From a virus, in the IMG/VR virus record IMGVR_UViG_3300015360_002539, positions 1 to 26,044 of that record: 26,044 nucleotides of DNA. One strand, given 5' to 3'. The notes beneath the pieces are model-generated. The model had not been told where the DNA came from. It did not search any database and worked only from the letters and a program-made list of their open reading frames with translations. This document shows, piece after piece, positions 862 through 20,209 of this stretch (the stretch's first letter is position 1; each line of letters begins with the position of its first letter). The translations under genes and the position numbers were made by a program.

Positions 862-889
862 ACCACGGCTTGAGGAATTTTTGAAAGAT

Positions 890-2347
890 ATGACGACGCT
901 CGAACCAAATGGAACGCATGTGAATGGCTCGTCTCCCGGAGTGCGCCCGCGCATTGTGGTGCTCTCGTCATCGCTGTTGACGGATCGGATGCTGATGTAT
1001 TCGCGCTTTCAAGAGCGCCTGGCGGAGCTGGCTGACGGTCGCGTGTGGACGATGTCGGCGCGGAATCCGGATTTTGCCGCGCCCAAGGCCGTGGAGGGCT
1101 GCCCCATCGAGCCGCTGCCCGAACTGCGGCCCTTCAAGGAATTTCCCTACAATTACCTGCGCCGGCTCAATGAGATGACCTGGGACTACGCCCAGCAAAC
1201 GCCCAGCCGCCTGAGCATCCGCAAGAATCTTCCGCAACGCGAGAACACCCTGGTGCGCCAGTTTCAATGGCCGGCGCGGCTGCTGGCGGGCCTGGGCGTC
1301 GAGCAGCCGCTGGAGAACTGGCTGGAGCGCCTTTGCCTGGGGTATCCCCGCAGCTTCGAGACGCTGGAAAAATTCAAGGCCAATCCCCCGGATGTGGTGG
1401 TCACGACCGGCCCGCATCGTTACGAGGAGCCGGCCATGATCGCCGCGGCCAAGAATCTCGGCATCCCGGTGCTGGCGTTCATCACCTCTTGGGACAATCT
1501 CTCGACCAAGCACCGGATGGTGCTGAAGTACGACGGCTTCATCGTCTGGTCGGAACAGATGGAGAAGGATCTGCACGAATTTTATCCGCAGTCGCGCGGC
1601 TTGCCGGTCTATCGCGTGGGCGCGCCGCAATTCGATGTCTTCTTCAATGATGAGTTCCGCCAGACGAAGGAGGAATGGTGCGCCGAGAACGGGTTGCGGC
1701 CCGAGTTGCCCGTCATCCTGCACGGGCTTGGCTCGCCCAATCTTGTGCCGGGTGAATTCCTGGCGGCGTTGCATCTGGCGCGGCAGGTTGCCGACGGAAA
1801 GCTCGGCGACGTGCAGCTCGTCATTCGTCCGCATCCGCTCTTCGAGACCGGGAAGGAATCGCAGCAGATGATGGATTTCGGGCCGAGGGTGATCCTGCAA
1901 AAGACCGGCCAGGCCGGATCCAAGCTCTCGTCGCGTTCGCTGGACCGGCAGCAAATCGTGAACTGGGTGAACACCTTCCGCCATTGCGACGTGCTGGTGA
2001 ACATTTTTTCCACGGTGGCGGTGGATGCCGCCATTTTCGACAAGCCCGTGGTGAACCTCGACTACGATCCTTCCTCGGCGCAGGATCGGGCCGGACTGAT
2101 TCATGACATCAACCATGTGTGGAATCATTTCAAGCCCATCACCGAATCCGGCGGGATGTGGATTGTGAAGAGCAACGAGGAGATGGTCGGCGCCGTCCGC
2201 GCCTATCTCAAGGATCCATCCCTGCACCGGCAAAAGCGGAGATGGATCGCCGAGCACGTTTGTGGTTACATTGACGGCCGCTGCGGGGAACGCATGGCGG
2301 AGGCGATGGCGGATTTCGCCTCCCGGCACTCACGGAAGCGACGGTAA
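890..2347 (+). CDS. GT-B-like glycosyltransferase / capsule-polysaccharide-type protein
   Basis: The 485-residue product starts at ATG 890, with purine-rich 'GAGGAA' and 'TGAAAG' just upstream; longer readings of the frame overlap the acetyltransferase and are unlikely. The central part has the pattern of a GT-B fold: 'PDVVVTTGPHRYEEPAMIAAAKNLGIPV', then 'FITSWDNLSTKH' and 'YDGFIVWSEQMEKDL', in which an older glycan chain or nucleotide-sugar donor is normally handled. The C-terminal half contains 'LVIRPHPLF', 'CDVLVNIFSTVAVDAAIFDKP' and 'VVNLDYD', motifs shared with CDP-glycerol and capsule glycosyltransferase-type proteins. No signal peptide or membrane segment is evident, so it is probably cytoplasmic. 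Donor and acceptor are unknown. Confidence 0.75.
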   Translation: MTTLEPNGTHVNGSSPGVRPRIVVLSSSLLTDRMLMYSRFQERLAELADGRVWTMSARNPDFAAPKAVEGCPIEPLPELRPFKEFPYNYLRRLNEMTWDYAQQTPSRLSIRKNLPQRENTLVRQFQWPARLLAGLGVEQPLENWLERLCLGYPRSFETLEKFKANPPDVVVTTGPHRYEEPAMIAAAKNLGIPVLAFITSWDNLSTKHRMVLKYDGFIVWSEQMEKDLHEFYPQSRGLPVYRVGAPQFDVFFNDEFRQTKEEWCAENGLRPELPVILHGLGSPNLVPGEFLAALHLARQVADGKLGDVQLVIRPHPLFETGKESQQMMDFGPRVILQKTGQAGSKLSSRSLDRQQIVNWVNTFRHCDVLVNIFSTVAVDAAIFDKPVVNLDYDPSSAQDRAGLIHDINHVWNHFKPITESGGMWIVKSNEEMVGAVRAYLKDPSLHRQKRRWIAEHVCGYIDGRCGERMAEAMADFASRHSRKRR

Positions 2348-2390
2348 GGCAAGGATCGGCGCCATCGGCACAACTATCATCTTGAAATCT

Positions 2391-3051
2391 ATGACGTATC
2401 AAAAATCAGAAACTAAAACGGGGCTGGTTCCGACCAGCCAGTTCACTCGCGACGGCTACGCCCTGTTGCAGGGGTCCGTCCCGCAGCAAGCGGTTCTCGA
2501 CCTGTATCAAACGGTCGTCCTGCTCATCCAGCGCTACGACGAGTCCTTGAGCGGGACCGAGTTCGAGCGGTTGATGTCCGCGCCGCCCTGGACCGATTCG
2601 GGATTCAACGGGCGGTTGATCGCGTTGCGTGCCGACCAGGCCAAGATGTTCGGCATGGTCTATGACGTGGTCCAGCTTTCCACCGCCATGCATCGCCTGT
2701 GCGTGGAGCCGCAACTTCTGGCGGCCGTCGGGCACGCGTGGGGGGTCGATCCCAAGGCTCTTGCCGTGACCGGCCACATGCTGCGCATGGACCCGCCGCA
2801 CGACACGCGCAACAGCCTCGACTGGCACCAGGATTCCTCCTATTACGAGCAAAACCTCGCCGGTGAAAACGGAATGGTGGTCTGGATTCCGATGCACCAC
2901 GTCGATGAGAAGAACGGCTCGCTGCTGGTCTGTCCGGGCAGCCATCACGAGGGGCAGGTCGAAGCCGTGCTCAGCGACCCCTCCGACGCCTCGATGTCCC
3001 GCCAGCGCCGCGTGCCGCAGGGCAGCACCTCGGATATGGTGATTTCTAGGT
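2391..3051 (+). pseudogene. Phytanoyl-CoA dioxygenase family gene, 3' end cut off by the prophage
   Basis: About 218 residues of a PhyH-family Fe(II)/2-oxoglutarate oxygenase are readable from ATG 2391. The HxD iron-binding pair is present (H146, D148 in 'DWHQDSSYYEQN'), as is the family motif 'LLVCPGSHHEG' near residues 180-188. The protein normally continues for another 60-90 residues carrying the distal iron-binding His and the 2-oxoglutarate-binding Arg; both are absent, because the sequence changes to AT-richer prophage-end DNA after 'QGSTSDMV'. An open frame reads on to 3386 but with no family resemblance. The truncated product should be inactive. Its place after two glycan genes hints at a hydroxylase or tailoring enzyme of the same locus. 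Confidence 0.82.
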
Positions 3052-3256: not shown

Positions 3257-3280
3257 CAAAAGTGACAGCTGTCACTTTTG
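3257..3280. terminator. 24-bp perfect palindrome, probable bidirectional terminator
   Basis: All 24 bases are self-complementary: four A after the first C, a GTGAC-AGCT-GTCAC core, then four T and a G. Read in either direction this is a short hairpin preceded by an A run and followed by a T run, the layout of a bidirectional intrinsic terminator. It lies 21 bases beyond the stop of the leftward gene 3302-3907, between the lysogeny unit and the prophage end. An operator is the alternative. Confidence 0.5.
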
Positions 3281-3290
3281 GCAAATCATT
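3275..3290. repeat. 16-bp direct repeat, copy 1
   Basis: CTTTTGGCAAATCATT occurs here and again at 3925-3940 (18 of 20 bases match when extended leftwards). Read leftwards, copy 1 follows the stop of the moron gene and copy 2 overlaps the stop of the repressor, so the two copies bracket the moron gene exactly. Confidence 0.85.
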
Positions 3291-3907: not shown

Positions 3908-3924
3908 GTTTTTCTCAGCTTTCT

Positions 3925-3940
3925 CTTTTGGCAAATCATT
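3925..3940. repeat. 16-bp direct repeat, copy 2
   Basis: Second copy of the sequence at 3275-3290. It covers the last codons of the repressor gene and the start of the 28-base gap before the moron gene. Recombination between copies would delete the moron cleanly. Confidence 0.85.
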
Positions 3941-4349
3941 CGTCCAATTGCTTGTAAATGACCGGATCGGACGGCGGCCTAATGTCCTTGGATTCCGTTC
4001 GGCGGCCGTCCATCGCGGCCTCAATAGTTGTGAGTTTTTCTTCGGCGCGAAGAGCGCGTTGCATCCAGTGTTCAACGCTGGATTGGGGGCCCTCTTTAAT
4101 GACGGGCCGCAACACCTCCAATTGCGCGCCGGTTAAAAACTCAACATCGCAATTAAGTTCACGCGCCAACGCGCGTAGATTTCCGCCCGTGATGCCCGAT
4201 CCGCCGCGCCAATTCGATAGAGCGGCGGGCGAGACCCCAAGCTTGGCCGCCAATTCGTTTCCGTCGCGCCCGCGATCCACCATGAGCTTTTCGATTCGCT
4301 CTGAAATGTTTTTAATAATCACTGAACTTTTATTTTGACACGCTGCCAA
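3936..4349 (-). CDS. XRE-family helix-turn-helix repressor (Mu c analogue by position)
   Basis: The product has a textbook XRE (Cro/C1) helix-turn-helix: 'DGNELAAKLGVSPAALSNWRGGSGI' with 'TGGNLRALARELNCDVEFLTG' completing the domain within the first 75 residues. The remaining half is helical and charged, with no peptidase motif. The longest frame begins at TTG 4347-4349 (137 aa); GTG 4320-4322 would give 128 aa and keep the whole domain. Neither has a clear ribosome-binding site. It is divergent from the Ner-like gene with only about 35 bases between them, so it should control lysogeny by binding that intergenic region. Note that Mu's own repressor has a different, winged-helix DNA-binding domain. 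Confidence 0.85.
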   Translation of the reverse strand: MAACQNKSSVIIKNISERIEKLMVDRGRDGNELAAKLGVSPAALSNWRGGSGITGGNLRALARELNCDVEFLTGAQLEVLRPVIKEGPQSSVEHWMQRALRAEEKLTTIEAAMDGRRTESKDIRPPSDPVIYKQLDE

Positions 4350-5495: not shown

Positions 5496-7709
5496 ATGCC
5501 CTCCAACCGCCACAACCTCCCTCTGACGCCCGGCGCACATCGCGCGTGTGAGGGAAAGTCTTCAATGCTCCTGGGGCCGGCCGTGCCGGCGGCCCCTGAT
5601 CTTTCGTCCGTGCCGGCCCTGGGTACCCTCATACCTTCTGTTGGTCATCCAGCAGAGGCCCCAAGCCGCGAGGCCGGGTGGGTTGAGGGCGGCGCGGACG
5701 TTGCCATTCCCGCGCCGCGTCACGAGGACGTTGCCCATTGTGACGATACGCGACGCGGTTCCGCCGACGGCGCGGCGCGGGATATTGAACACGGCTCGGC
5801 GGGAGCCTCGCCCCACCAGGTGAAAGGCCACAGCTTCGCCGACTGGCGCGAGGCCGAGGCGAAGGCGACGACGTGCGTGCGTTACCTCGAACTCATCGGC
5901 GCGCCGACCCACTACGGGCTCAATCAAGCCGCCGTCGCGCTGGGCAAAGCCCCGGCATTCTTCAGCGGATCAAATTCCATGTATTCGCGCTGGCGGCGCG
6001 AGGGTGTCGCGGGGCTGCTGCCGCGCCGTCGCGACTGCGGCACGAAGCCATCGTTCATCGTCCCCGCCTGGTTCATCCCCGCCGCGAAATTCTTCTGGTT
6101 GATCACCAACCGAAACGTGAATGGAGGATCGGTTCCTGAAGCCATTCGCCGCGTCATCTCCCTGCCCGCGCTCCCCGTCGGCTGGCGGCCCAACGACACC
6201 CTGCGATTCGGGCGCGCCATGCGCGACGTTGGCCAGCCCGTCATCCCGACGTGCCCGCCGGAACTTCGCGAACTCATCCTCGCCCGCGAGCGCGCTGGCA
6301 CGCCCCTGGTGCCCGAGCGCATTGCCAGGCAGATTCTCGCCGACCGCTCCACTGTCGATGCCTATCGGAATCCCACCGAAGCCGCCCTCAAGCACGTTTC
6401 CGCCCCCGGCACGATGATGTGGAAACGCGGCGAAGGCGTTGCCGAGCGCATTTTCCTGCGCGCGGGCGACGTCATCGAAGCCGACGACGGTACGATCAAC
6501 TTCCCAGTGTGCGTGCCGTGGACGATGGGCGGCTGTCCGTGCTCGGATAAATTCGGCGTCAAGGTGGGGCGCTTTCAATTCCTCCGCCCCATTGATGCCG
6601 GGAGTCGATTCCGTCCCGGCTACGTCTACGTCGCGCGGCCGCGAGGGAGCTATCGTCGCGAGGACGTGCTCGCGCTCATGCGCATGGTCGCGCGCACCAT
6701 GGGCATCCCGCGCTCGTGGAGATTTGAGCGCGGCACTTGGGAAACACAGATGGTCGAGGACGCCGCGAAACATCTCGGCAGCGACGTGCATCACGTCTTC
6801 TCGCCGCGCTCGAAGCCGTTCGTCGAAGGCGGATTCAGCGATGACTGGAAAAAACTCTCGCTCCATTTCCCCGGCGCAGACGTGGGACGATTTATGGGCG
6901 AAACCGAGGAAGCGAATGTCTTTCTGACGAAGTGCAAGAAAGGCACGCAAGATCCACGGCAGATGTTCCCGCTGCTCGAGACCGCGCTCGCCGCGTTCGA
7001 CGCCATCACGATGGAACAGAATCGCAGCCCGGTGAACTCCGCGAACTACGGCCGCTGGATCCCCGAGGAGCGCCTCGCCGATCACCTCGCGGCGCGACCG
7101 CTTCGGCGGCTCAATCCCGAGAGCGATTGGATCTTCAGCCCCTACGTCCGCGACTGGACCGTGCGCGGGATGCTCGTCGGCGGCAAGGTGCCGATCTTCG
7201 AGGAGGTGAGTGTGCCCTTCGATTTCAGCGCGCCCTGGCTCCCTCAATATCACGGCGCTAAGGTGCGCTGTCACTTTGACCCGAGCGAAGCCCGTTGCGC
7301 CGCGACCCTCGTGCTTTTGGAGAATCACGGCCCACACCGCGCCGGCGACGTGCTCGGCCCCGCCCTCCAGATCAACGAGACCGCCGGCTATGTGAGGCTC
7401 GTGATGGGCTGGGGAGATGACCCGGTGAGCCTCGGCCGCAGACAGCGGCAGCAAGCCGCCAGCGCCATGCGCCGCGAAGTGCGGCACATCCTCCCGCGCC
7501 AGGGACCGAACATCCCCGCGCCGACCGGCATCTCCGAGATGCGCGACGGCCTCGGCCAGAAGGTTGTCATCGACCGCGATGTCATCGACCGCGATGTCGC
7601 ACCCCTCGTAAATCGGAAATCGGAAATCGGAAATCCGTCCGTGGAAATCGCCAGCGCCCGCGAGCAGGCCGCGCGTTTCGAGCGCGACAACGCCCACCTC
7701 TTTGTCTGA
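5496..7709 (+). CDS. MuA-like transposase (phage integrase/replicative transposase)
   Basis: The 737-residue protein should bind the prophage ends and carry out strand transfer. Residues about 1-110 are low-complexity and repeat-derived. DNA-binding helices begin near 'HSFADWREAEAKATTCVRYL' and 'NSMYSRWRREGVAGLLPRRRD'. The catalytic core runs about 320-450: first acidic residue D330/D331 in 'VIEADDGTINF', second position E411 in 'SWRFERGTWET', third E444 in 'SPRSKPFVEGGF'. The middle residue is Asp in MuA, so this is a D-E-E variant. The C-terminal part has the mu-transposase beta-barrel-like 'RDWTVRGMLVGGKVPIFEEV'. The tail has a perfect 15-bp tandem duplication (7566-7595) and an (AAATCGG)n repeat. 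MuB follows. Confidence 0.9.
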   Translation: MPSNRHNLPLTPGAHRACEGKSSMLLGPAVPAAPDLSSVPALGTLIPSVGHPAEAPSREAGWVEGGADVAIPAPRHEDVAHCDDTRRGSADGAARDIEHGSAGASPHQVKGHSFADWREAEAKATTCVRYLELIGAPTHYGLNQAAVALGKAPAFFSGSNSMYSRWRREGVAGLLPRRRDCGTKPSFIVPAWFIPAAKFFWLITNRNVNGGSVPEAIRRVISLPALPVGWRPNDTLRFGRAMRDVGQPVIPTCPPELRELILARERAGTPLVPERIARQILADRSTVDAYRNPTEAALKHVSAPGTMMWKRGEGVAERIFLRAGDVIEADDGTINFPVCVPWTMGGCPCSDKFGVKVGRFQFLRPIDAGSRFRPGYVYVARPRGSYRREDVLALMRMVARTMGIPRSWRFERGTWETQMVEDAAKHLGSDVHHVFSPRSKPFVEGGFSDDWKKLSLHFPGADVGRFMGETEEANVFLTKCKKGTQDPRQMFPLLETALAAFDAITMEQNRSPVNSANYGRWIPEERLADHLAARPLRRLNPESDWIFSPYVRDWTVRGMLVGGKVPIFEEVSVPFDFSAPWLPQYHGAKVRCHFDPSEARCAATLVLLENHGPHRAGDVLGPALQINETAGYVRLVMGWGDDPVSLGRRQRQQAASAMRREVRHILPRQGPNIPAPTGISEMRDGLGQKVVIDRDVIDRDVAPLVNRKSEIGNPSVEIASAREQAARFERDNAHLFV
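5590..5820. repeat. Repeat-derived 5' segment of the transposase gene
   Basis: The segment encodes a low-complexity stretch with no transposase similarity. It ends with a single arm (5793-5820) of the palindromic repeat found whole in the portal gene (25 of 28 bases identical to 19033-19060). It also contains a near-identical direct repeat, GGACGTTGCC(C)ATT, at 5696-5708 and 5726-5739. The reading frame stays open throughout. Confidence 0.6.
7566..7637. repeat. 15-bp tandem duplication plus (AAATCGG)n in transposase tail
   Basis: GTCATCGACCGCGAT is repeated head to tail (7566-7595), coding for VIDRD twice. Shortly after, a heptamer array CGTAAATCGGAAATCGG... (7607-7637) codes for 'VNRKSEIGN'. 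Both are in frame. Confidence 0.9.
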
Positions 7710-7716
7710 CCGGCAA

Positions 7717-7740
7717 AACCAACAACCAACAACCAAAACC
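7717..7740. repeat. Heptamer repeat AACCAAC before MuB start
   Basis: AACCAAC is repeated about three times between the transposase stop and ATG 7744. No Shine-Dalgarno sequence is present, so this repeat forms nearly the whole leader of the ATPase gene. Confidence 0.8.
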
Positions 7741-7743
7741 ACA

Positions 7744-8769
7744 ATGCAAACCACCCCGGAAATCACCCGACTACGCGAGCTTGCCCGCGACGTGTGGGAT
7801 TACCAAGTACTGCGCGACTGGTCTGATGGTCAGACCTGCCGGGAAATCTCGCACGTCGGCTCGACGAAGACCTACAAGAGGATCCTCGATCCCGATGATG
7901 ACCTCTGCGAACTGAACATCGCGGCGCAGTTGAAAAACTTCGAGGCTGCGGCTTCTTACATTATCCAACGCCGCGCCACGGATCGCCCCGCCGAGACGGA
8001 ATACACCGATTTCGACAACGTCGCACGCGGCGTCAGGGGCGTGACCCGCGCGCTCGCCGAAGAGACAAATAGCCGGCTCGTCTGCATCGAGGGCGAGAAC
8101 GGCACGGGGAAGGATGTGCTGCGCAACTTCCTGCTGCGCCAATGGGGGAAAATCACCGTCGCCGTCGAGGCGACCGAAATGTGGCGGGACAGCAACACTG
8201 TGCCCGCCGGCGACATCCTCCGCGCGCTCGGCGCGCGCGACATCCCCTCCATGCCCGGTCTCCGCTGGGATCGCGTGCATGAAGAGTTGGGCAAGCGCAA
8301 ACGCATCCTCCTGATCAACGAAGCTCACCACATGGGTTGGAAGATGCTGAACAACGTGAAGACGATCATCAACGTCACGCAGGACAGCAGCCGCGTCGTC
8401 GTCGTCTTCCTGTGCATCCCGGCTCTGATCCGCAAACTCGAATCCGACAGCTACCAGGAGGCCGCGCAACTCTTCGGCAACAGGCTGTGCGAGCGCGTCA
8501 CGCTGGCCAGTCCGTCGCCAAATGAAATCCTCACATTCCTGGACCGTCGCGGCGTCACCTTCGCGACGCCAAAGGATGCGAAGCTCAGCGCCGACGCGCT
8601 CGCCGCCGAGGCGCCCCAATACGGCAACTGGAAGTATGTGAACCTCGTGAGCCGCGAAGCTCGCGCCGAGAAGGCGCGCACGCACCTGGAGTTCGCCGCC
8701 GCTCTCGCCGAGGTCAAGGCCCGGCGCGTCACCCAACGCAACTCAAACCGCCTCACCTCATGGACCTGA
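7744..8769 (+). CDS. MuB-like AAA ATPase, transposition target-selection protein
   Basis: The 341-residue product sits directly after the transposase, where MuB lies, and has the MuB layout: a small N-terminal HTH-like region ('YQVLRDWSDGQTCREISHVGSTKTYKRIL') then an AAA ATPase core. MuB binds DNA with ATP and delivers target DNA to the transpososome. The P-loop is 'GENGTGKD' (117-124), with Asp where Ser/Thr normally contacts magnesium. The Walker B strand reads 'RILLINEAHHM', with Asn192 before Glu193 where Asp is usual. Both are non-canonical. A sensor-like 'VVVFLCIPALIR' and a C-terminal helical domain follow. I chose ATG 7744 over a TTG at 7702 that overlaps the transposase. It overlaps the next gene by 10 bases. 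Confidence 0.85.
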   Translation: MQTTPEITRLRELARDVWDYQVLRDWSDGQTCREISHVGSTKTYKRILDPDDDLCELNIAAQLKNFEAAASYIIQRRATDRPAETEYTDFDNVARGVRGVTRALAEETNSRLVCIEGENGTGKDVLRNFLLRQWGKITVAVEATEMWRDSNTVPAGDILRALGARDIPSMPGLRWDRVHEELGKRKRILLINEAHHMGWKMLNNVKTIINVTQDSSRVVVVFLCIPALIRKLESDSYQEAAQLFGNRLCERVTLASPSPNEILTFLDRRGVTFATPKDAKLSADALAAEAPQYGNWKYVNLVSREARAEKARTHLEFAAALAEVKARRVTQRNSNRLTSWT

Positions 8770-8954
8770 CACCCCAAAAAGCCCAATCCGCCACCGTGCC
8801 CAGCGCCACCAACGCCAACCTGACGCTGCTGCTTTCTGAAAGCGACGGCCCGCTGTCCCTGATCCGCATCGAGATTCACGAGGCGTCGATCATCTACGTA
8901 AAGCCAGACGAACTCTCCCTCGCCGTCAATAATATCGTAAATCGTAAATCGTAA
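8760..8954 (+). CDS. Small phage protein with repeat-derived C-terminus
   Basis: A 64-residue frame starting within the last codons of the MuB-like gene. The last residues, 'NNIVNRKS', and the TAA stop come from the heptamer repeat (TAAATCG)n at 8934-8965, so the original C-terminus may have been lost or replaced. The core ('LTLLLSESDGPLSLIRIEIHEASIIYVKPDEL') looks beta-stranded. No family recognised. Confidence 0.5.
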   Translation: MDLTPQKAQSATVPSATNANLTLLLSESDGPLSLIRIEIHEASIIYVKPDELSLAVNNIVNRKS

Positions 8955-8965
8955 ATCATAAATCC
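8934..8965. repeat. Heptamer array (TAAATCG)n at gene junction
   Basis: Four to five units ('ATCGTAAATCGTAAATCG...') supply the stop codon of 8760-8954 and end 1 base before ATG 8967. The same family recurs at 9594-9613, 10088-10111, 10559-10587, 12298-12321, 7607-7637 and, inverted, at 18402-18430. Confidence 0.95.
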
Positions 8966-9514: not shown

Positions 9515-9603
9515 TCACCTACGAGCGCCGCCATTCAGGTTTTCAGGTTGTCAGGTTGTCAGGTTGTCAGGTTTCAACCCCGCGCCCGCGCCCTGAATCG
9601 TAA
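9511..9603 (+). pseudogene. Vestigial coupled small ORF filled with repeats
   Basis: The ATG at 9511 overlaps the stop of the previous gene (ATGA), as real genes here do, but after seven codons ('MITYERR') the sequence becomes the octamer repeat (TTGTCAGG)n, a GC-rich block and a heptamer array that supplies the stop. It looks like the start of a small gene whose body was replaced by repeats. The ORF at 10489 has the same structure. Confidence 0.45.
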
Positions 9604-9613
9604 ATCGTAAATC
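9536..9613. repeat. Composite repeat, copy 1 (octamers + GC block + heptamers)
   Basis: Three parts in order: octamers TTTTCAGG/TTGTCAGG (about four), the 19-mer AACCCCGCGCCCGCGCCCT at 9576-9594, and the (TAAATCG)n heptamers that end immediately before ATG 9614. The same order is found at 10511-10587. The whole is the leader of the next gene. Confidence 0.9.
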
Positions 9614-10081
9614 ATGAGCGCCCTCACCAAAGATCAAAAGCGTTACCTCTCCCAGCAGAGTGATCGGCTCTACAACCTCGACGCGGCCAAGGCGCGCGGT
9701 CGCGGCGAGACGCCGGACGTGACCACGAAGGCCCGCGCCACATTCCGCCACGGCCACGTCATCGCCGCCTGCGGGAAGCACGGCCTGCGCTGCTGTTCAC
9801 AGGAAGATTTTGCAACCGTCAAAGCCCACTTCCAAAATGCCCTTGGCGAGCCAGGCCAGGCACTCAAGACCCTTGTCCATGGCGACGATAACGCACGCCG
9901 TCAGGTCGAGTGGAAGATCACCCGAGCCTGCGCCGCGCTCGGCAAATCCGTCGCCTACGCCCACGGCATCTGCAAACAGCGATTCCACGGCCTACACATC
10001 GCCGATGCCTCGGTGCGGCAACTCTGGGGCATCTATTTCGCGCTCGTGAAACATCAACAACGCCAGAACCCCGCCGCATGA
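9614..10081 (+). CDS. Middle-region phage protein, unknown
   Basis: A 155-residue basic, helical protein ('MSALTKDQKRYLSQQSDRLY', 'FRHGHVIAACGKHGLRCCS', 'DASVRQLWGIYFALVKHQQRQ'). The last helix faintly recalls the end of GemA/gp16-type Mu regulators, but not enough to name it. The ATG directly follows a heptamer array with no Shine-Dalgarno. It ends 30 bases before the next gene, again separated by the same repeat family. Confidence 0.65.
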   Translation: MSALTKDQKRYLSQQSDRLYNLDAAKARGRGETPDVTTKARATFRHGHVIAACGKHGLRCCSQEDFATVKAHFQNALGEPGQALKTLVHGDDNARRQVEWKITRACAALGKSVAYAHGICKQRFHGLHIADASVRQLWGIYFALVKHQQRQNPAA

Positions 10082-10087
10082 GCGGTT

Positions 10088-10111
10088 CGTAAAACGTAAA
10101 ACGTAAATCCC
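10088..10111. repeat. Heptamer array (TAAAACG)n at gene junction
   Basis: CGTAAAACGTAAAACGTAAATCCC fills most of the gap between 10081 and ATG 10112. It is a variant of the TAAATCG family. Confidence 0.9.
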
Positions 10112-10492: not shown

Positions 10493-10575
10493 GCGAACAG
10501 GAGCCTCGCCGGTTTTCAGGTTTTCAGGTTGTCAGGCTTAAACCCCGCGCCCGCGCCCTAAATCGCAATTCGTAA
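10489..10575 (+). pseudogene. Vestigial coupled small ORF filled with repeats (second case)
   Basis: The ATG overlaps the stop of 10112-10492 (ATGA). After seven or eight codons ('MSEQEPRR') it runs into octamer repeats, the GC-rich 19-mer (10541-10559) and heptamers, giving 'FSGFQVVRLKPRARALNRNS' and a TAA from the array. It parallels 9511-9603. Confidence 0.45.
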
Positions 10576-10587
10576 AACGTAAATCCC
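10511..10587. repeat. Composite repeat, copy 2
   Basis: Octamers TTTTCAGG (10511-10538), the identical 19-mer AACCCCGCGCCCGCGCCCT (10541-10559) and degenerate heptamers up to ATG 10588. Same order and same position (a gene leader) as copy 1, about 975 bases away. Confidence 0.9.
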
Positions 10588-10905
10588 ATGAACGACTCCC
10601 CTGAACTCATCGCCGCCGTGCGGGACATCCAGTCGGATGTGGCCCGAGAGGCGGGCGTCTCTCTCGCGCAACTGCTCGGCCCCGGTCGCGAAGAGACGTT
10701 GGTGTCCGCGCGCTGGCTGGCCATGCACATCGTGCGTGAGACCACGTCCGCCTCCATGCACTCCATAGATCGCCTCTTCCACCGCCAGCGCGGCGCCACC
10801 CTTTACGCACTGCGCACCATCCGGGATCGCATCTCCATCTACGCCGACGTGCGCGACACCGCCGCCCGCTGGGTGCGACATTTCCAATCCACCCCCCCAA
10901 CCTGA
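10588..10905 (+). CDS. Stand-alone DnaA domain IV-like DNA-binding protein
   Basis: This 105-residue protein aligns by eye with the C-terminal DNA-binding domain of DnaA over most of its length: 'VSLAQLLGPGREETLVSARW' matches the DnaA segment '-V---LL---R---V--R', 'LAMHIVRETTSASMHSIDRLF' matches 'AM-L--ELT--SL--IG--F', and 'HRQRGATLYALRTIRDRI' matches 'GGRDHTTVLHA---I'. The AAA ATPase domain is absent. The signature 'GGRDHTT' loop is degenerate. In DnaA this domain binds DnaA boxes at the origin. A free-standing copy could bind host origin DNA or phage promoters. The leader is composite repeat copy 2. Confidence 0.7.
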   Translation: MNDSPELIAAVRDIQSDVAREAGVSLAQLLGPGREETLVSARWLAMHIVRETTSASMHSIDRLFHRQRGATLYALRTIRDRISIYADVRDTAARWVRHFQSTPPT

Positions 10906-12297: not shown

Positions 12298-12321
12298 CGT
12301 AAATCGTAAATCGTAATTCCC
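12298..12321. repeat. Heptamer array (TAAATCG)n at gene junction
   Basis: CGTAAATCGTAAATCG... fills the gap between the stop at 12293 and ATG 12322, with no Shine-Dalgarno. Confidence 0.95.
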
Positions 12322-12693
12322 ATGAAGCCCTTGGATTTCCGCAATGAAACATTCGCGAGCCTCCGCGCGCGGCTCACTGGTCTGCGCTCGCAGGTGTGGA
12401 CCGCATGGATCGCCTGGGAGATCGCGCACGGCACGGATGGCGCCACCACTCGCGCCGTGGCCGAGGGCAGCCGCATCGACATCCTCACCCTGCGCCCGCG
12501 TGTGACCGAGCTGTACCAAATCGGCGCCCTGCGCCTGGCCGATGATCAGCCCGACAAATCCGAGGCGCGCTACGTCGTGCGCAGCACCGGCGAGATGGAG
12601 GCATGGGCCGACGAGCAACGCGACCACGCGCTCACCCCGCAGCTCCAAATGCCCGAGATCATTGATTGCCGATTACGGCTCACTAATTACTGA
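12322..12693 (+). CDS. Winged-helix-like phage protein, unknown
   Basis: A 123-residue protein whose middle ('VWTAWIAWEIAHGTDGATTR', 'ILTLRPRVTELYQIGALRLA') resembles a winged helix: a recognition helix 'TLRPRVTELYQIGAL' followed by a wing-like hairpin, as in phage HTH proteins that sense a 'cell is infected' state or bind DNA. The last residues 'DCRLRLTNY' and the TGA stop are read from degenerate and perfect units of the 14-bp repeat, so the native end was probably overwritten. Confidence 0.6.
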   Translation: MKPLDFRNETFASLRARLTGLRSQVWTAWIAWEIAHGTDGATTRAVAEGSRIDILTLRPRVTELYQIGALRLADDQPDKSEARYVVRSTGEMEAWADEQRDHALTPQLQMPEIIDCRLRLTNY

Positions 12694-12739
12694 ACACTGA
12701 TTACTGAACACTGATTACTGAACACTGATTACTGAACAC
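12684..12739. repeat. 14-bp tandem repeat TGATTACTGAACAC x4 between two genes
   Basis: Four units of 14 bases, the last three perfect, from 12684 to 12739. Each unit is two related heptamers (TGATTAC, TGAACAC). The first unit supplies the TGA stop of the upstream gene (12691-12693) and the array ends 1 base before ATG 12741. Confidence 0.98.
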
Positions 12740-13091: not shown

Positions 13092-13394
13092 ATGGGAAAA
13101 ACCATCAAAACCATGAAACAAATCAAATCAAACGGCTCAGTCGTAGTCCTGCCATCCGTGTTTGTCGGCAACCTCTATGTATATGTTGGCGTGAGACTGG
13201 ACGCCTCGAAGCTCGGAAAAGTTGTCGGAAACCTCTACGTTTATGGCCACGTGCAACTGCCCGCGCTCACCAGAGTCGGCGGCAATCTCTACGTGGATGG
13301 TGCGGCGAATCTGCCCGCACTCACAAAAGTTGACGGCGACATCCGCGTGTATGGTGAGGCTAAGTTGAACGCTCCGAAGCTCAAGCTTCGGTGA
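13092..13394 (+). CDS. Short beta-solenoid (leucine-rich-type) repeat protein
   Basis: A 100-residue protein made of about four repeats of 18-20 residues, typified by 'GNLYVYGHVQLPALTRVG', 'GNLYVDGAANLPALTKVD' and 'GDIRVYGEAKLNAPKLK'. Such 'GNLYV...LPALT.V.G' repeats predict a small right-handed solenoid or leucine-rich-type fold, common in phage-borne cytoplasmic proteins. A second in-frame ATG at 13113 is equally possible. The gene and the next one are AT-richer than the rest, suggesting a cargo pair. Partner unknown. Confidence 0.7.
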   Translation: MGKTIKTMKQIKSNGSVVVLPSVFVGNLYVYVGVRLDASKLGKVVGNLYVYGHVQLPALTRVGGNLYVDGAANLPALTKVDGDIRVYGEAKLNAPKLKLR

Positions 13395-13403
13395 ATTGAA
13401 AAT

Positions 13404-14279
13404 ATGTCTAAAAACTCAGATGTTGAGTGGGCGGATCACACCATAAATCCGTGGGTCAGTGCGGCGAACTGGAAGCTGCCGTTGCAGTTGAATCGGCAAT
13501 ACGAAAAGGCACAGAGTTTCATGGAGGGACTGATTGCCCAACCTCGCGTCTTCTGCCAGTCGGTGGGTGACTGGCTGGATGACGAGGTGCCGATTTCGTG
13601 GCTCGCGAACCTGCTGCGTCTCATCAACGCCACGCCGAATCTCGACTGGCAGTTATTGACCAAGCGGCCGGAGAATTTCAGAGCTCGCCTTGAGCAGGCT
13701 TACAGTGCGCCGGGGATGGGCAGTGATGTGGCCAACGCTGACTGGATTTTTCATTGGGCAAATAACCACGGCTGCATCCCAGCGAATGTCTGGATCGGCG
13801 TGTCCGTTGAGAACCAACGCCACGCTGACGAGCGCATCCCGCAACTGCTCGCCATCCCGGCCCGGGTTCGATTCCTTTCCTGCGAGCCGTTGCTTGGGCC
13901 GGTGGAGTTTTCGGATGCCACGAATCGTTCTGACTGGATTCGCCAGCTTGGCAAAAAATCACTTTCCGGCATTCATTGGGTCATCATCGGCGGCGAGATC
14001 GGGCCGAAGGCGAGGCCATGCAACATCGACTGGATACGATCCATCGTTGGCCAGTGCAAGGCGGCTGGAGTAGCGTGCTTTGTGGGGCAACTCGGAAGCA
14101 ACGCTGTCATGCCTGAGCTTTGCACATACGCAGGCAATCCTCCCCCGTTGGACTCACTGTCTCTAGTCTCCTGTGGATTGCGCGACAAAAAAGGCGGCGA
14201 AATGTACGAGTGGCCGAGCAGTCTGCGCGTGCGCGAGTTCCCGTATACGGCGCATCCCGCAACTGCTCGCCATCGGTAA
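13404..14279 (+). CDS. DUF5131 (phage Gp37/Gp68) family protein lacking the cysteine cluster
   Basis: The family is recognised from 'VEWADHTINPWV', 'SAANWKLPLQLNR', 'PRVFCQSVGDWLDDEVPISW', 'LDWQLLTKRPENF', 'NVWIGVSVENQRHADERIPQ', 'ARVRFLSCEPLLGPVEF', 'HWVIIGGEIGPKARPCNIDW' and 'GGEMYEWPSSLRVREFP'. Family members normally have about 30-40 residues between 'NPWV' and 'SAANW', with a 'GCTKVSPGC--CYA'-type cysteine cluster. Here the two flanks are joined directly, in frame, so the cluster is gone. The last residues after 'REFPYTA' come from a 25-bp sequence duplicated from within the gene and read in another frame. The family's function is unknown; a radical-SAM-like fold has been suggested to me only by the Cys pattern. 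This copy may be inactive. Confidence 0.85.
   Translation: MSKNSDVEWADHTINPWVSAANWKLPLQLNRQYEKAQSFMEGLIAQPRVFCQSVGDWLDDEVPISWLANLLRLINATPNLDWQLLTKRPENFRARLEQAYSAPGMGSDVANADWIFHWANNHGCIPANVWIGVSVENQRHADERIPQLLAIPARVRFLSCEPLLGPVEFSDATNRSDWIRQLGKKSLSGIHWVIIGGEIGPKARPCNIDWIRSIVGQCKAAGVACFVGQLGSNAVMPELCTYAGNPPPLDSLSLVSCGLRDKKGGEMYEWPSSLRVREFPYTAHPATARHR
13832..13856. repeat. 25-bp exact direct repeat, internal copy
   Basis: The sequence begins GCGCATCCCGCAACTGCTCG and is identical to 14250-14274, 418 bases further on. This copy codes for 'RIPQLLAI' in the normal DUF5131 frame and is presumably the original. Confidence 0.95.
14250..14274. repeat. 25-bp exact direct repeat, 3'-terminal copy
   Basis: Identical to 13832-13856 but read in a different frame ('HPATARH'), 3 bases before the TAA stop. 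It marks a recombination or template-switch scar at the end of the DUF5131 gene. Confidence 0.95.
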
Positions 14280-15036: not shown

Positions 15037-15759
15037 ATGGCCGCCGCCACTCAACACGCCGACCCCGCCATGACCGCTCAAGGGGCGTTCCGCGCTGCGT
15101 CTGTTTCAGTGTCCGGCAAAACTGTCCTTTCGCTGTTCGACCACTCCGGGAACTGGTCGCGACCCTACGCCGAGGCGGGCGCGAACGTAGTGCAAATCGA
15201 CATCAAGCTCGGCGTGGACATCATGGATTTGGACCGCGCCTGGCTCACGGAAAAAGTGCTCGAAAAATACGGCGTGGTGGACGGCATCCTGGCTGCCCCG
15301 CCCTGCACCGACTTCGCTTCGAGCGGCGCGCGATACTGGCCTGCCAAAGACCAGAGCGGCCAAACCGCAAGGAGCCTGGAACTCGTGCGCCAAGTTCTGC
15401 GCTGCGTGGAATTTCTCAAACCCGACTGGTGGACGATGGAGAATCCGGTTGGAAGGCTCAACACGCTGCTGCCGGAGCTTAAAAAGTTCGGCCCGTGGTA
15501 TTGCGACCCGTGCGACTTCGGCGACCCTTACACGAAGCGGACGGGACTCTGGGGACGATACACGCCTCCGCTGCCGCTGCTTGTGGGCGGTGACCGCGCC
15601 GTGACTCCCGTGCGGGCGTGCCCGCAAGGATCATGGATGCAAAAGCTTGGCGGAAAATCCGAGAAAACCAAAACGCTGCGGAGCGCAACGCCGATGGGAT
15701 TTGCCTACTCATTTTTCCTGGCAAACTGCTGGGATGGCGCGAGGACACTGAACCCCTGA
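15037..15759 (+). CDS. Short C5-cytosine methyltransferase-like protein
   Basis: The 240-residue protein has the order of C5-methyltransferase motifs: an AdoMet-binding start 'VLSLFDHSGNWSRPYAEAGANV' (motif I region), 'VDGILAAPPCTDFASSG' with Pro88-Pro89-Cys90 (motif IV nucleophile), and 'WWTMENPVGRLN' with Glu135-Asn136-Pro137 (motif VI, usually ENV). 'CDFGDPYTKRTGLWG' and 'LRSATPMGFAYSFFLAN' match the later part of this short phage subfamily. There is no obvious room for a full target-recognition domain. No restriction enzyme gene is adjacent, so if active it would be an orphan modifier, possibly protecting phage DNA. It touches the next gene by a TGATG overlap. Confidence 0.75.
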   Translation: MAAATQHADPAMTAQGAFRAASVSVSGKTVLSLFDHSGNWSRPYAEAGANVVQIDIKLGVDIMDLDRAWLTEKVLEKYGVVDGILAAPPCTDFASSGARYWPAKDQSGQTARSLELVRQVLRCVEFLKPDWWTMENPVGRLNTLLPELKKFGPWYCDPCDFGDPYTKRTGLWGRYTPPLPLLVGGDRAVTPVRACPQGSWMQKLGGKSEKTKTLRSATPMGFAYSFFLANCWDGARTLNP

Positions 15760-16615: not shown

Positions 16616-16833
16616 AGGCGCCCCTGTCAGGTTGTCAGGTTGTCGGGCTTTGGAACGCCTGGGAGGCGATTTGCCGCTCGGGGGGTATCTACACCGCCCT
16701 CGAAGGGTTTGACCCCCACGCGAAGCCACGCGAAAGGGCAAGGCGTCGATTCTGGCGCCTGCTTCACACCCCCATTTCACCCGGATCATACAGCCAAACC
16801 CGGCCTGACCCATTCGGGCGGCGTGAATCATGA
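16612..16833 (+). CDS. Possible small coupled ORF ahead of terminase, repeat-invaded start
   Basis: A 73-residue frame from GTG 16612 that overlaps the stop before it (GTGA) and the terminase start after it (ATGA 16830). Its first codons, 'APLSGCQVVGLW', come from the octamer repeat (TTGTCAGG)n. The remainder ('GIYTALEGFDPHAKPRERAR') shows no family. It may be a remnant, like 9511-9603, but the flanking overlaps argue for translation. Confidence 0.4.
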   Translation: MKAPLSGCQVVGLWNAWEAICRSGGIYTALEGFDPHAKPRERARRRFWRLLHTPISPGSYSQTRPDPFGRRES

Positions 16834-18401
16834 GCGCCGCTCTGCAACTGCGTCCCGCGCAACGCCGGTTCCACAAGTTCGTGGATCAGTATCGCGTCTC
16901 CGCATTTTTGGCGCGGCGGCAATATGGCAAGACGACCACCGTCGCCGGCGTCGCGCTTAAGAAGATGATGAGGACGCGCGGGCACACCGTCGTCTTTGGT
17001 TCGGCCAAGCTCTCGCTCTCGCGCGAGATCGTGCGCAAGGAAGCGCAGATCATGCAGGAAGCGCTGAGAGGGATGAAGGCGGAAGGCGGAAGGCAGAATG
17101 CAGAAGGGCCGCTGCGGACCATCGACAGCGCGACGGGGAAGGTCATGCCGTCGGATTTGCATGCGGATGATTTTGCGGAGGTTTTCGAGGCGCAACGGCT
17201 GGAGTTCCGTTTCTACCATTCTAAAAATGCTTCCGATTATTCCCGCACAAAAGTCGTCGCGCTCGTGCCTGATGCCGTCGGCGACACCGGAGATCTGATG
17301 CTCGATGAAGTTGGGCGCGTGCGGAATTTCCGCGAGGTGTGGGAGGCGGTGAAGCCGATCATTTCGAGCAACCCGCAATTCCGTTGCACCCTCACCACGA
17401 CGCCGCCGCCGGATGATACGCACTACAGCTTCGAGCTGCTCGCGCCACCCATCGGCCTCGACTTCGCGGCGAATCCGAACGGCAACGAATACGTTTCAGA
17501 ACTCGGTGTTCACATCCTGCGCGTCGATGCGTTCGATGCGTTCGCGGGCGGGCTTTCACTTTACGACGACAACACGGGCGAGCCGCTCGCGCCCGCCGAG
17601 CATCGACGCCGCGATCACGACAAGGACGCCTGGGATCGCAATTACGGCGTGCGCTTCATCATCGGCGGCAGCGCCGCGTGCGGGCTGCTGCTGCTCGACA
17701 CCGCGCAACGCCGGGGTCTCGGCACATGCTGCTGTTTCCTGATCGATGACGATCTCAGCTTCGATCACGCGCTCGCATGGCTCGCAAAAAATCTCACCTC
17801 GAACAAGGTCGGCATCGGCGTGGATTGGGCCACCACCGAGAAGGGCACGAGCAACCCGACGAGCGTCAGCATCACCGAGCGCGAGGGCGCGGGCTACATC
17901 ACGCGCGCCGTGTTCATCTGGAAAACCGCCGACCCCGATCTCGCCGAGGATCGCCTCACGCGCATCGTCGAGATCGTCAATGCCCGCAAGGACGGCGGAC
18001 GCGCACGTCGTCTCTGCCAGGATGCGACGAGCGAGAAATACTTCTGCGCGCGCATCAAAAAGAAACTGCGCGCACTGGTGCCGGTCGAGAACGTGGTCGG
18101 CAGCGAAACCATCGAGAAGCCGGGCGGCGAAAAGATGACGATGAAACAATGCCTCGGCTCAATCTACGTCGGTGAGCTGGAGGATAATCATCTCACGCTC
18201 CCGCCCGAGCGTTACCTGCGCGAGGATCATCGCCTGCCGAAAAAAGAGAAGGGCACGTTCATTTGCGAGCCGGACCCGCAAGGCCGGCACGGCGACACAT
18301 TCGACAGCGGGAAGCTGAGTGTGTGGGCGCTCGTGAGCCGCGGCAGCGAAGGCAAGGCCGTGGCCGTGGCGATAGGCAACCACATCGGAGGCGGATGGTG
18401 A
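16830..18401 (+). CDS. Terminase large subunit (Mu gp28-like)
   Basis: The 523-residue motor-nuclease drives DNA into the prohead and cuts it. The ATPase has a Walker A variant 'ARRQYGKTTT' (K34), Walker B 'GDLMLDEVGR' (D159, E160) and the coupling motif 'CTLTTTP' after it. The nuclease part begins at 'GIGVDWATTEKGTSNPTSVS' (D332) and continues through 'RRLCQDATSEKYFC', with the closing acidic segment 'GRHGDTFDSGKLS', the order expected for an RNase H-like nuclease. Residues around 83-94 ('KAEGGRQNAEG') are read from an in-frame heptamer array (17075-17106). The ATG overlaps the preceding ORF. Confidence 0.92.
   Translation: MSAALQLRPAQRRFHKFVDQYRVSAFLARRQYGKTTTVAGVALKKMMRTRGHTVVFGSAKLSLSREIVRKEAQIMQEALRGMKAEGGRQNAEGPLRTIDSATGKVMPSDLHADDFAEVFEAQRLEFRFYHSKNASDYSRTKVVALVPDAVGDTGDLMLDEVGRVRNFREVWEAVKPIISSNPQFRCTLTTTPPPDDTHYSFELLAPPIGLDFAANPNGNEYVSELGVHILRVDAFDAFAGGLSLYDDNTGEPLAPAEHRRRDHDKDAWDRNYGVRFIIGGSAACGLLLLDTAQRRGLGTCCCFLIDDDLSFDHALAWLAKNLTSNKVGIGVDWATTEKGTSNPTSVSITEREGAGYITRAVFIWKTADPDLAEDRLTRIVEIVNARKDGGRARRLCQDATSEKYFCARIKKKLRALVPVENVVGSETIEKPGGEKMTMKQCLGSIYVGELEDNHLTLPPERYLREDHRLPKKEKGTFICEPDPQGRHGDTFDSGKLSVWALVSRGSEGKAVAVAIGNHIGGGW
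17075..17106. repeat. Heptamer array GCGGAAG, in frame inside the terminase ATPase domain
   Basis: GAAGGCGGAAGGCGGAAGGC, then two degenerate units (AGAATGCAGAAG). It encodes a hydrophilic loop between Walker A and B, so it is tolerated by the motor protein. Confidence 0.9.
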
Positions 18402-18430
18402 AATTTACGATTTACGATTTACGATTTGCG
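18402..18430. repeat. Heptamer array, inverted (GATTTAC)n, before the portal gene
   Basis: AAATTTACGATTTACGATTTACGATTT is the reverse complement of the TAAATCG family. It starts right after the terminase TGA and ends shortly before ATG 18436. Confidence 0.95.
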
Positions 18431-18435
18431 ACCCC

Positions 18436-20154
18436 ATGAAACCCATCCTCCAACGATTCGCCGCCGCTCTCGGTGCGCTGCTCGACAATATGCCCACGAC
18501 GCGACGCGGCCGCGTGGGGCAGCGACACGAGCCGATCACCGCGACGGCGGGCGCGACGAATGCGAGCATCATGTCCGCCATCCGCAGCGCCGAGAGCAAC
18601 GGCGAGACACGGCTGCTCTTCGCGCTGTATCGCGATATTACGGTCGCGGGATCGCACGTCCAGGCGGAGTTCGGCAAACGCAAGATGGCCGTGCTCGGCC
18701 AGCCGATGGCCGTGCTGCCCGAGGACAAGGACGATGACGACGACGTCCTCGCCGCCGATGCCGTGCGCCAGATGATCGCCGATTGCGAGAACTGGACGCC
18801 CGGCCTCACGCATCTCATGGATGCGACGCTCTGGCCGGTGGCCTCGGTCGAGAAAATCTATCGTCCGGTCGTGGCCGGCGCGTTGCGCGAGGGCGCGATT
18901 CCGTTGCGATTCACGCTGCGCCGTTTGGAGATCGTGAATCCCACGCTGCTGTGCTTCCGGCAGGATTACACCGACAGCAGGGCGAACGATGGTAGGGCGA
19001 CGCTCCCGCGGAGCCGTGATCAAATAGATCAGGGCGCGGCGGGAGCCTTGCCCTACCAGGCGGAAGTCTGGGAAAAGGATCTGCGCTTCTACGCCACCGA
19101 CGCCGACGGCCGCGTGGATTACAGCGCGGGCACGGCTTACGCAGCCGAGCCGGAGCGGCACATCATTCATCGCGGGCATCTGCTCGTGGGCGTGCGCGAC
19201 AACTGGGGCGGCCCCATGCGCGCGATTGTCTTCTGGTGGTTTTTGTCGCAACTGGCGCGCGACTGGTTCGGGCGCGGCATGGAGCGTTACGGCGCGCCCT
19301 TCGTCGTCGGGCGCACGGACGTGACGGACAACGCGAAGCTCACGATGTTGCAGGAGGCGTTCAGCCTCTCGACCAAGATCGGTGGGCTGGTCGTGGATGA
19401 AGATTCGCAGATCGAGCTCAAGGAGATCGCGACCTCGAACATGGCGGATGCCTACGAGAAATTCATCAACGTCTGCAATCGCGAGGTCTCGAAGGTGATC
19501 GTGGGACAGACCGCCAGTGCCGAAGTGCAACCCTCGGGCCTCGGCTCCGGGTCCAGCGATCTAGCGGGCGAAGTGCGCGATGACATCCGCACCTTCGACA
19601 AGCTCACCCTGGGCGAGACATTGCGCCGGCAGTTGTTCGAGCCGTTCCTGCGCATCAACGGACTGGCCGGGCGCGCGCCGAAGATCGTCTGGGGCGGCTT
19701 GAGCGCGGGTGACTCCGCCGCCATCGCCGATCTCCTGGTGAAGCTCTCCCAAGCCAGCCTCGAACCGGCAGACGAGGCGCTCCCGACGATCAGCGAGAAG
19801 GTCGGATTCCAGATCCAGCGCAAGGCCGCGCCTGAACCGACGCAGGGATTCGGCCCGACACCATTCCGCGCGCAACTCTCAACCTTCAACTCTCCATGGC
19901 CGCAGGCGACTCATCCCTCGGATGCCATCGCGGCCGCGCGGGCGAAGGCGTTGGGCGAAGCCTATCGCGGCGCGCTGGCGCCCGTGCGGCTCATCATCCA
20001 GCACAGCACATCGCCTGAAGACGCGCGCATGAAGTTGGCCGCGTTCTACGCGGACTGGAAACCGGAAAAAGTCCAGCAGCTCACGGAAGAGGCGTTGCAA
20101 ATCGCCGCCGCCGCCGGCGCCGCTGCGGCGCAGAAGGTAGAAGGCAGAAGGTAG
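18436..20154 (+). CDS. Portal protein (Mu gp29-like, DUF935)
   Basis: The 572-residue product forms the ring through which DNA enters the head. Family signs: 'LFALYRDITVAGSHVQAEFG', 'KRKMAVLGQPMAV', 'EKIYRPV', 'RDNWGGPMRAIVFWWFLSQL', 'DWFGRGMERYGAPFVVGRTD', 'NREVSKVIVGQTASAE' and 'LAGEVRDDIRTFDKLTLGET' follow DUF935 order. Three repeat-derived pieces are in frame: residues about 186-208 (palindromic element, 18991-19057), 'AQLSTFNS' near 19872 (ACTCTCA-type repeat) and the last residues 'KVEGRR' with the TAG stop (AGAAGGY heptamers). The protein is longer than the usual 500 or so residues, in part because of these. Confidence 0.9.
   Translation: MKPILQRFAAALGALLDNMPTTRRGRVGQRHEPITATAGATNASIMSAIRSAESNGETRLLFALYRDITVAGSHVQAEFGKRKMAVLGQPMAVLPEDKDDDDDVLAADAVRQMIADCENWTPGLTHLMDATLWPVASVEKIYRPVVAGALREGAIPLRFTLRRLEIVNPTLLCFRQDYTDSRANDGRATLPRSRDQIDQGAAGALPYQAEVWEKDLRFYATDADGRVDYSAGTAYAAEPERHIIHRGHLLVGVRDNWGGPMRAIVFWWFLSQLARDWFGRGMERYGAPFVVGRTDVTDNAKLTMLQEAFSLSTKIGGLVVDEDSQIELKEIATSNMADAYEKFINVCNREVSKVIVGQTASAEVQPSGLGSGSSDLAGEVRDDIRTFDKLTLGETLRRQLFEPFLRINGLAGRAPKIVWGGLSAGDSAAIADLLVKLSQASLEPADEALPTISEKVGFQIQRKAAPEPTQGFGPTPFRAQLSTFNSPWPQATHPSDAIAAARAKALGEAYRGALAPVRLIIQHSTSPEDARMKLAAFYADWKPEKVQQLTEEALQIAAAAGAAAAQKVEGRR
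18991..19057. repeat. REP/MITE-like palindromic element inside the portal gene
   Basis: Two 25-base arms (18991-19015 and 19033-19057) are inverted complements at 21 of 25 positions, beginning GGTAGGGC and ending GCCCTACC. The 17-base loop holds a smaller perfect inverted repeat TGATC-AAATA-GATCA. The right arm recurs at 5793-5820 in the transposase gene, and 17 of its bases, GCCTCGCCCCACCAGGC, in the form seen in the transposase arm, occur at 25256-25272. Confidence 0.85.
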
Positions 20155-20209
20155 AAGGCAGAAGGTAGACAACCTGAAAACTTGATAACCTGAAAACCTG
20201 AAAACCCCA
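20132..20209. repeat. Two abutting repeat arrays between portal and MuF genes
   Basis: AGAAGGT/AGAAGGC heptamers (20132-20168) supply the portal stop codon TAG. They run directly into octamers AACCTGAA/ACCTGAAA (20170-20205), the inverse of the TTTTCAGG family, up to ATG 20210. Confidence 0.95.

Follow-up and report, generated by a model that had tools for sequence, protein, structure and literature searches.

What use might a phage that replicates by transposition have for the origin-binding domain of the bacterial initiator DnaA? The question is raised by the gene at 10588-10905 of a 26,044-base virus fragment (IMG/VR record IMGVR_UViG_3300015360_002539), the whole of which is referred to here as the window. 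An earlier note, made from the letters alone, had described the product as a stand-alone DnaA domain IV (DnaA-IV) without an ATPase, carried by a transposing phage, and both statements hold. The Pfam profile for the DnaA C-terminal family (Bac_DnaA_C, PF08299) matched residues 12-78 over profile positions 2-69 of 69, with an E-value of 1e-11 and 45.1 bits against a cut-off of 31.5; the remaining Pfam matches had E-values of 0.071 and 0.19, so no unrelated helix-turn-helix (HTH) family gave a significant match. The NCBIfam model for DnaA (TIGR00362) matched at its C-terminal end only (model positions 347-429 of 437; 1.9e-10), and its 40.4 bits fall short of the full-protein cut-off of 343.9, as expected for a lone domain. 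Indeed, at 105 amino acids (aa) the protein is not a full-length DnaA initiator, which needs an AAA+ domain III as well as domain IV. A sequence search of the PDB returned the DNA-binding domain of M. tuberculosis DnaA (3pvp; 5.5e-7) and domain IV of the E. coli protein (1j1v; 0.003), and PHROGs gave a weak match (0.0096) to phrog_27829, a 'DnaA-like replication initiation protein'. Six helices make up the AlphaFold2 model (pLDDT 95.8, pTM 0.87), for which a 21-row alignment of window and locus sequences was used. The model's top Foldseek matches were the same two structures, and VIA alignment gave a Z of 16.6 for 3pvp (root-mean-square deviation 1.6 over 95 residues) and 16.1 for 1j1v, compared with 6.1 for the top non-DnaA chain. 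These results confirm that the gene encodes a complete DnaA domain IV on its own, and that the match is not due to chance.

The carrier is a transposable Mu-like phage. The window has genes for a MuA-like transposase, a MuB-like ATPase, a Mu-type portal and a Mu F (MuF) head protein, and the MuA- and MuB-type genes are adjacent and overlap (Table 1). The order is HTH repressor-like gene, MuA, MuB, a block of small genes that includes 10588-10905, terminase, portal and MuF. A member of the Verrucomicrobiota is the probable host, since the relatives of the terminase in named genomes are mostly Verrucomicrobia metagenome-assembled genomes (MAGs): three such MAGs at 53-60% identity and a further MAG at 55%, together with a weak Planctomycetota match. 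As a query against IMG/VR, the MuA-like transposase had no match.

Table 1. Coordinates in the window of the DnaA-IV gene, its parts and the other genes of the Mu-like element
Feature	Position	Strand	Evidence or remark
HTH repressor-like gene, divergent	3936-4349	-	Place of the Mu c repressor
MuA-like transposase	5496-7709	+	phrog_310, E 1.7e-7
MuB-like AAA ATPase	7702-8769	+	phrog_296, 1.3e-9; AAA_22, 2.4e-10
Neighbour gene without family match	9614-10081	+	Homologue in L006, 44.7% over 152 aa
Leader directly 5' of the ATG of the DnaA-IV gene	10563-10587	+	CGTAAAA-type heptamers; near-copy of the 10087-10111 leader (preceding gene)
Stand-alone DnaA domain IV-like protein, no ATPase domain	10588-10905	+	105 aa open reading frame; Pfam, NCBIfam, PDB, structure comparison
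Bac_DnaA_C (PF08299) domain	10621-10821	+	Pfam, profile 2-69 of 69
Recognition loop and start of recognition helix, residues 65-70 (HRQRGA)	10780-10797	+	Q67/R68/G69/A70 = E. coli D433/H434/T435/T436
Large terminase-like gene	16830-18401	+	12 IMG/VR relatives; Pfam match sub-threshold
Mu-type portal	18436-20154	+	Portal_Mu, 9.1e-50
Phage_Mu_F head protein	20210-21769	+	8.5e-14

We compared the residues of the protein with those of 33 Verrucomicrobiota DnaA proteins, using E. coli numbering; the register is supported by the modelled recognition helix, which starts at R68, the equivalent of position 434. The arginines at 399 (minor groove) and 407, present in all 33 proteins, have their equivalents in the phage protein. 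At 433, where the bacterial proteins have D (29) or N (four), it has Q; at 434, invariably H in the bacterial set, it has R, as do the proteins of two further Mu-like elements described below (L002 and L058); at 436 an invariant T is replaced by A. Position 435 is G in 29 of the bacterial proteins, T in three and A in one, and G in the phage protein. The earlier note had the DnaA loop GGRDHTT, which is the E. coli form, replaced by HRQRGAT. The loop is indeed altered, but it is one residue shorter than that of E. coli and reads H-R-Q-R-G-A. Moreover, the G at 435 is no change for this host group, since Verrucomicrobiota DnaA mostly reads GGRDHGT; the genuine substitutions are Q for D, R for H and, at position 436, A for T. 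We take D433 and H434 to be base contacts and R407 to be a backbone contact. Judged from these residues, the DNA grip (backbone and minor-groove residues) is retained and the reading head is altered, in agreement with the suggestion that specificity may differ.

The altered reading head bears directly on the idea that the protein serves to take over the host, by occupying the DnaA boxes of its origin, stopping initiation and so freeing the replisome for phage transposition. The common fold and the retained equivalent of R399 are in keeping with this, as is the H that L055, L060 and L067, three further proteins of phages or prophages, have at 434 (L067 with N at 433 and A at 436, as read from the alignment). 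However, proteins of the DnaA-box binding class have residues of the D/N433, H434 and T436 type and bind TTATNCACA, whereas the window protein has Q, R and A. In E. coli, Arg399 is reported to read the 5' TTA of the box and helix 434-451 its 3' TnCACA, and T435M or R399A singly makes box binding defective (PMC5742627). Since three of the positions by which the 3' half of the box is read are replaced, competition for DnaA boxes is unlikely, and the proposal that the protein blocks host initiation is weakened. Nor is the phage rich in such boxes: the window has two against 0.57 expected (shuffle mean), and at least two were found in 11 of 100 shuffles, which is chance level. On balance we consider a host takeover of this kind improbable.

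Host initiation might also be altered through protein contact rather than DNA binding, by an action on the DnaA cycle. Domain IV alone lacks the ATPase on which regulatory inactivation of DnaA (RIDA) acts, which argues against this. The precedent is Caulobacter GafY, first named HdaB, whose overexpression altered replication, a role that later authors have reinterpreted (PMC9632790). The chance that the window protein works in this way appears slim.

Is the gene peculiar to one fragment? Stand-alone DnaA-IV genes were found in four divergent Mu-like elements, namely the window, L002, L058 and L067, and two of the last three sit in Verrucomicrobiota genomes. In all four the gene lies 0.9-3.9 kb 3' of the MuB-like gene and points in the same direction. 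It is nevertheless an accessory gene: Bac_DnaA_C was detected in one of the 12 IMG/VR terminase relatives (L002, 62 bits) and not in the other 11, several of these records being fragments, and a second, short Bac_DnaA_C gene was found in one (genome G013) of the four named-genome terminase relatives searched. In that genome (locus L067), a MuB-like gene (phrog_296, 8.4e-22) is followed by Mu Gam (PF07352, 2.4e-29) and then by the DnaA-IV gene, which starts 5 bases after Gam.

A wider search covered 387 Verrucomicrobiota genomes, of which 366 had a Bac_DnaA_C match and 27 more than one. One of the 27 is G013; when the other 26 were searched again, nine second matches exceeded the cut-off, spread over seven genomes. 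Fifteen regions were retrieved, comprising second matches above the cut-off and some weaker ones. L058 proved to be a Mu-like prophage: 0.9 kb 3' of its MuA-like (8.7e-14) and MuB-like (6.8e-13) genes lies a DnaA-IV frame that points the same way. The gene in L060 lies near a GpA-type terminase. Apart from L058, L060, L059 and the transposase fusion L064 (both below), the regions are harder to classify. Elsewhere, two DnaA-IV-like genes lie close by in a prophage-like region (L061, 7685-8314 and 8819-9238), the second judged by alignment only. In the prophage L059 (7414-9140), a DnaA-IV gene stands directly 5' of a DnaB helicase gene, with a one-base overlap and near methylase-like genes; this is a candidate replication initiator pair of a theta-type phage.

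Since phrog_296 matches 201 of the 387 genomes, it is by itself no marker of Mu-like prophages, and MuA-MuB neighbours were therefore counted by hand. There are at least 17 such pairs within about 1.5 kb, a lower bound because the count misses two Mu-like prophages that carry the gene (G013:C25 and G244:C4); on these 17 contigs no second PF08299 match was among the matches listed (E 0.001 or better). In IMG/VR the window, L067 and L058 proteins have no close relatives, and the L002 protein found its own contig only. A search with a two-row alignment (A1) added a single distant protein, L055, from a phage in which no Mu genes could be recognised. Against INPHARED the window protein had two matches, both in unannotated human-faecal records, and the L055, L058 and L002 proteins matched 42, 9 and 15 records, many of them bacterial dnaA genes; among four INPHARED records examined in context none was a Mu-like phage. 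One of the two records matched by the window protein, labelled 'Bacteriophage sp.' (MT837552, L014), was rejected as a phage: its DnaA is full-length, AAA-type region included, and since dnaN- and recF-like frames follow (by eye), the record appears to be a mislabelled bacterial origin region.

On a domain tree of 26 rows and 108 columns, the window protein has a branch of 5.03 changes per column. Such a long branch, together with the lack of close IMG/VR relatives, would suit a functionless passenger or a decaying piece of captured dnaA. Against this, the open frame spans exactly one complete domain with its modelled core intact, the phosphate- and minor-groove residues are retained, and four divergent elements have the gene in a comparable position. 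A mere remnant is therefore very unlikely. The tree itself, with long branches and one starred branch of 23 inner ones, supports neither a single nor a multiple origin.

The position of the gene among the early genes, 3' of MuA and MuB, invites a role in transposition: the protein might draw the transpososome to host origins or forks, repel it from them, or aid the hand-over to the host replisome. The earlier note had raised steering to or away from the origin. A parallel exists in the IS200-like TnpA_REP transposases, some of which have the same C-terminal domain; one such fusion, of a Y1 transposase to the domain (Y1_Tnp 3.5e-11, Bac_DnaA_C 1.4e-7), is found at L064. TnpA_REP subclass 2.1, with its C-terminal Bac_DnaA_C, is likewise a mobile-element use of DnaA-IV, and a family survey suggests fork targeting for it; according to the same survey, however, the TIRYT repeats are unlike DnaA boxes, and the target is probably not the box (PMC6006769). 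In contrast to these fusions, the window domain is not joined to a transposase but is made as a protein by itself, next to a transposition system of the Mu type. The gene is also missing from most related Mu-like records, and the altered reading residues argue against binding to host boxes. We regard targeting of transposition as unlikely.

The explanation that we favour, tentatively and at just short of an even chance, is that 10588-10905 encodes a phage transcription regulator made from the early genes. The protein would be a minimal sequence-specific DNA binder, a DnaA domain IV cut loose from its ATPase and re-tuned to another sequence. Made with the early genes, it would bind phage operators and would switch on middle or late genes, shutting them off being the less likely outcome. 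Its action would resemble that of GafY and the GafA N-terminus, both DnaA-IV-like, in turning on the genes of gene transfer agents (GTAs). DNA binding, phage DNA as the target and activation are all parts that we infer. The earlier suggestion of a repressor comes closest to this class of function, but the studied relative, GafY/GafA, is an activator.

In Mu-type phages the switch to late genes is normally made by Mor/C, the usual middle and late activators. Mor (PF08765) was not found above the cut-off in any of 13 records, the window included. Leptospira transposable prophages are also described as lacking Mor/C (PMC8705779), and Mor/C is thus no longer a strict requirement for the Mu-like class. 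We favour a regulator because of these observations, and because GafY and GafA are the closest studied proteins of this build. GafY is reported to be a homologue of DnaA domain IV and to bind the promoters of many operons (PMC9632790). An interaction with RpoD and activation of the GTA cluster are likewise reported for it (PMC11150451), and the N-terminal DnaA-like domain of GafA is described as likely essential for GTA promoter activation (PMC9638019). Like the window protein, GafY of Caulobacter and the GafA N-terminus of Rhodobacter have a DnaA-IV-like domain without an ATPase in a phage-type setting, in their case a phage-derived gene cluster. However, they are alphaproteobacterial, their partner is the sigma-like GafZ, and they are likened to the window protein by description. 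Mor and C themselves, small early-region HTH regulators of transposable phages, are the proposed functional counterpart but differ in family, the window having no PF08765 match.

Several observations weigh against such a regulator. Mor is undetected also in relatives that lack DnaA-IV, so the protein is not a one-for-one replacement of Mor; a late activator specifically is therefore weakly supported, and a local regulator is the safer form of the proposal. Because the gene is absent from 11 of the 12 terminase relatives, its product cannot be the sole route to late genes. No operator for the protein was found, and no GafZ/DUF6456 partner appeared among the window proteins scanned with Pfam, a scan that took in some open reading frames only and no search by family name. 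Finally, stand-alone DnaA-IV genes lie beside replication genes in other prophages, as with DnaB in L059, and for prophages of that type a role in replication is at least as natural. Leptospira transposable prophages are also described as lacking Mor/C (PMC8705779), and Mor/C is thus no longer a strict requirement for the Mu-like class.

The DNA around the gene has features of its own. In its leader (Table 1) no Shine-Dalgarno-like sequence was seen by eye. A composite leader of 66 bases is duplicated at 89% identity (9546-9611 and 10511-10576), 5' of two different genes of which the second is the DnaA-IV gene. Between 7606 and 22627 there are 17 short tandem arrays of period 7 or 8, with units such as CGTAAAT, TTTTCAGG and TGATTAC (examples are 8934-8964, 9535-9573, 9596-9613, 10088-10107, 10511-10536, 12298-12316, 12663-12735, 18403-18431 and 20132-20206), and seven of the 17 end no more than 6 bases 5' of a predicted start codon. 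Per 10 kb there are 6.5 of them in the window but 0.54 in a set of 30 host dnaA loci; the relatives L007 and L002 have 5.6 and 4.6 per 10 kb, with mostly different units. We found no account of period-7/8 arrays in the literature. The arrays were rejected as binding sites of the DnaA-IV protein, there being no association between arrays and gene: the gene-bearing L058 and L067 have none and two, respectively, the gene-less L007 has 12, and the gene-less L006 and L013 have an AAATCGT-type unit in common.

At the left of the window, about 200-3000 is host-like, with a CDP-glycerol glycerophosphotransferase-like gene and a PhyH dioxygenase (match ending near 2990). A 25-base direct repeat (92%; 3266-3290 and 3916-3940, 650 bp apart) lies close to what is presumed to be the left end of the element and could hold transposase or repressor sites; the palindrome GTGACAGCTGTCAC is located at its first copy. 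The neighbour gene at 9614-10081 had been thought GemA-like by eye, an idea that neither NCBIfam nor Pfam supported. Further downstream are a small open reading frame (13092-13394) with a 54-base tandem repeat (1.9 copies, 76%; GNLYVYG/GNLYVDG-like peptide) and an accessory block with a DUF5131 gene (13404-14279; 3.2e-53) and a C5 cytosine methylase-like gene (15037-15759; 1.6e-5).

How much of this is new? Stand-alone DnaA-IV is already known from gene transfer agents and is annotated in some phages. DnaA-like proteins of Rhizobium phage RHph_N28_2 and the Bradyrhizobium prophages ppBeUSDA76-2 and ppBjS10J-1 are likewise stand-alone DnaA-IV, but these are non-Mu phages in which the genes lie among DUF1376, DUF2312, HNH or recombination genes, with no MuA or MuB annotated in the stretches shown. 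Where DnaA-IV sits among replication or recombination genes, as in L059 and the Bradyrhizobium prophages, an origin-binding role is plausible. In contrast, we found no description in the open-access literature of a stand-alone DnaA-IV in a Mu-like phage, and to our knowledge the set of such proteins with altered box-reading positions is undescribed.

The four divergent cases, each altered at box-reading positions, amount to a natural series on the ways in which DnaA domain IV shifts to a new target. For transposable phages without Mor/C, the protein is a candidate for the late activator that is missing there. A bolder proposal, which we regard as doubtful though worth stating, is that in transposing phages of the Verrucomicrobiota the part of DnaA that binds origins has been split off repeatedly and now serves as a re-programmed address reader, tying replicative transposition or the early-to-late switch to specific sites. 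If this were true, the DNA grip of the initiator would have been put to use by a phage that itself lacks an origin.
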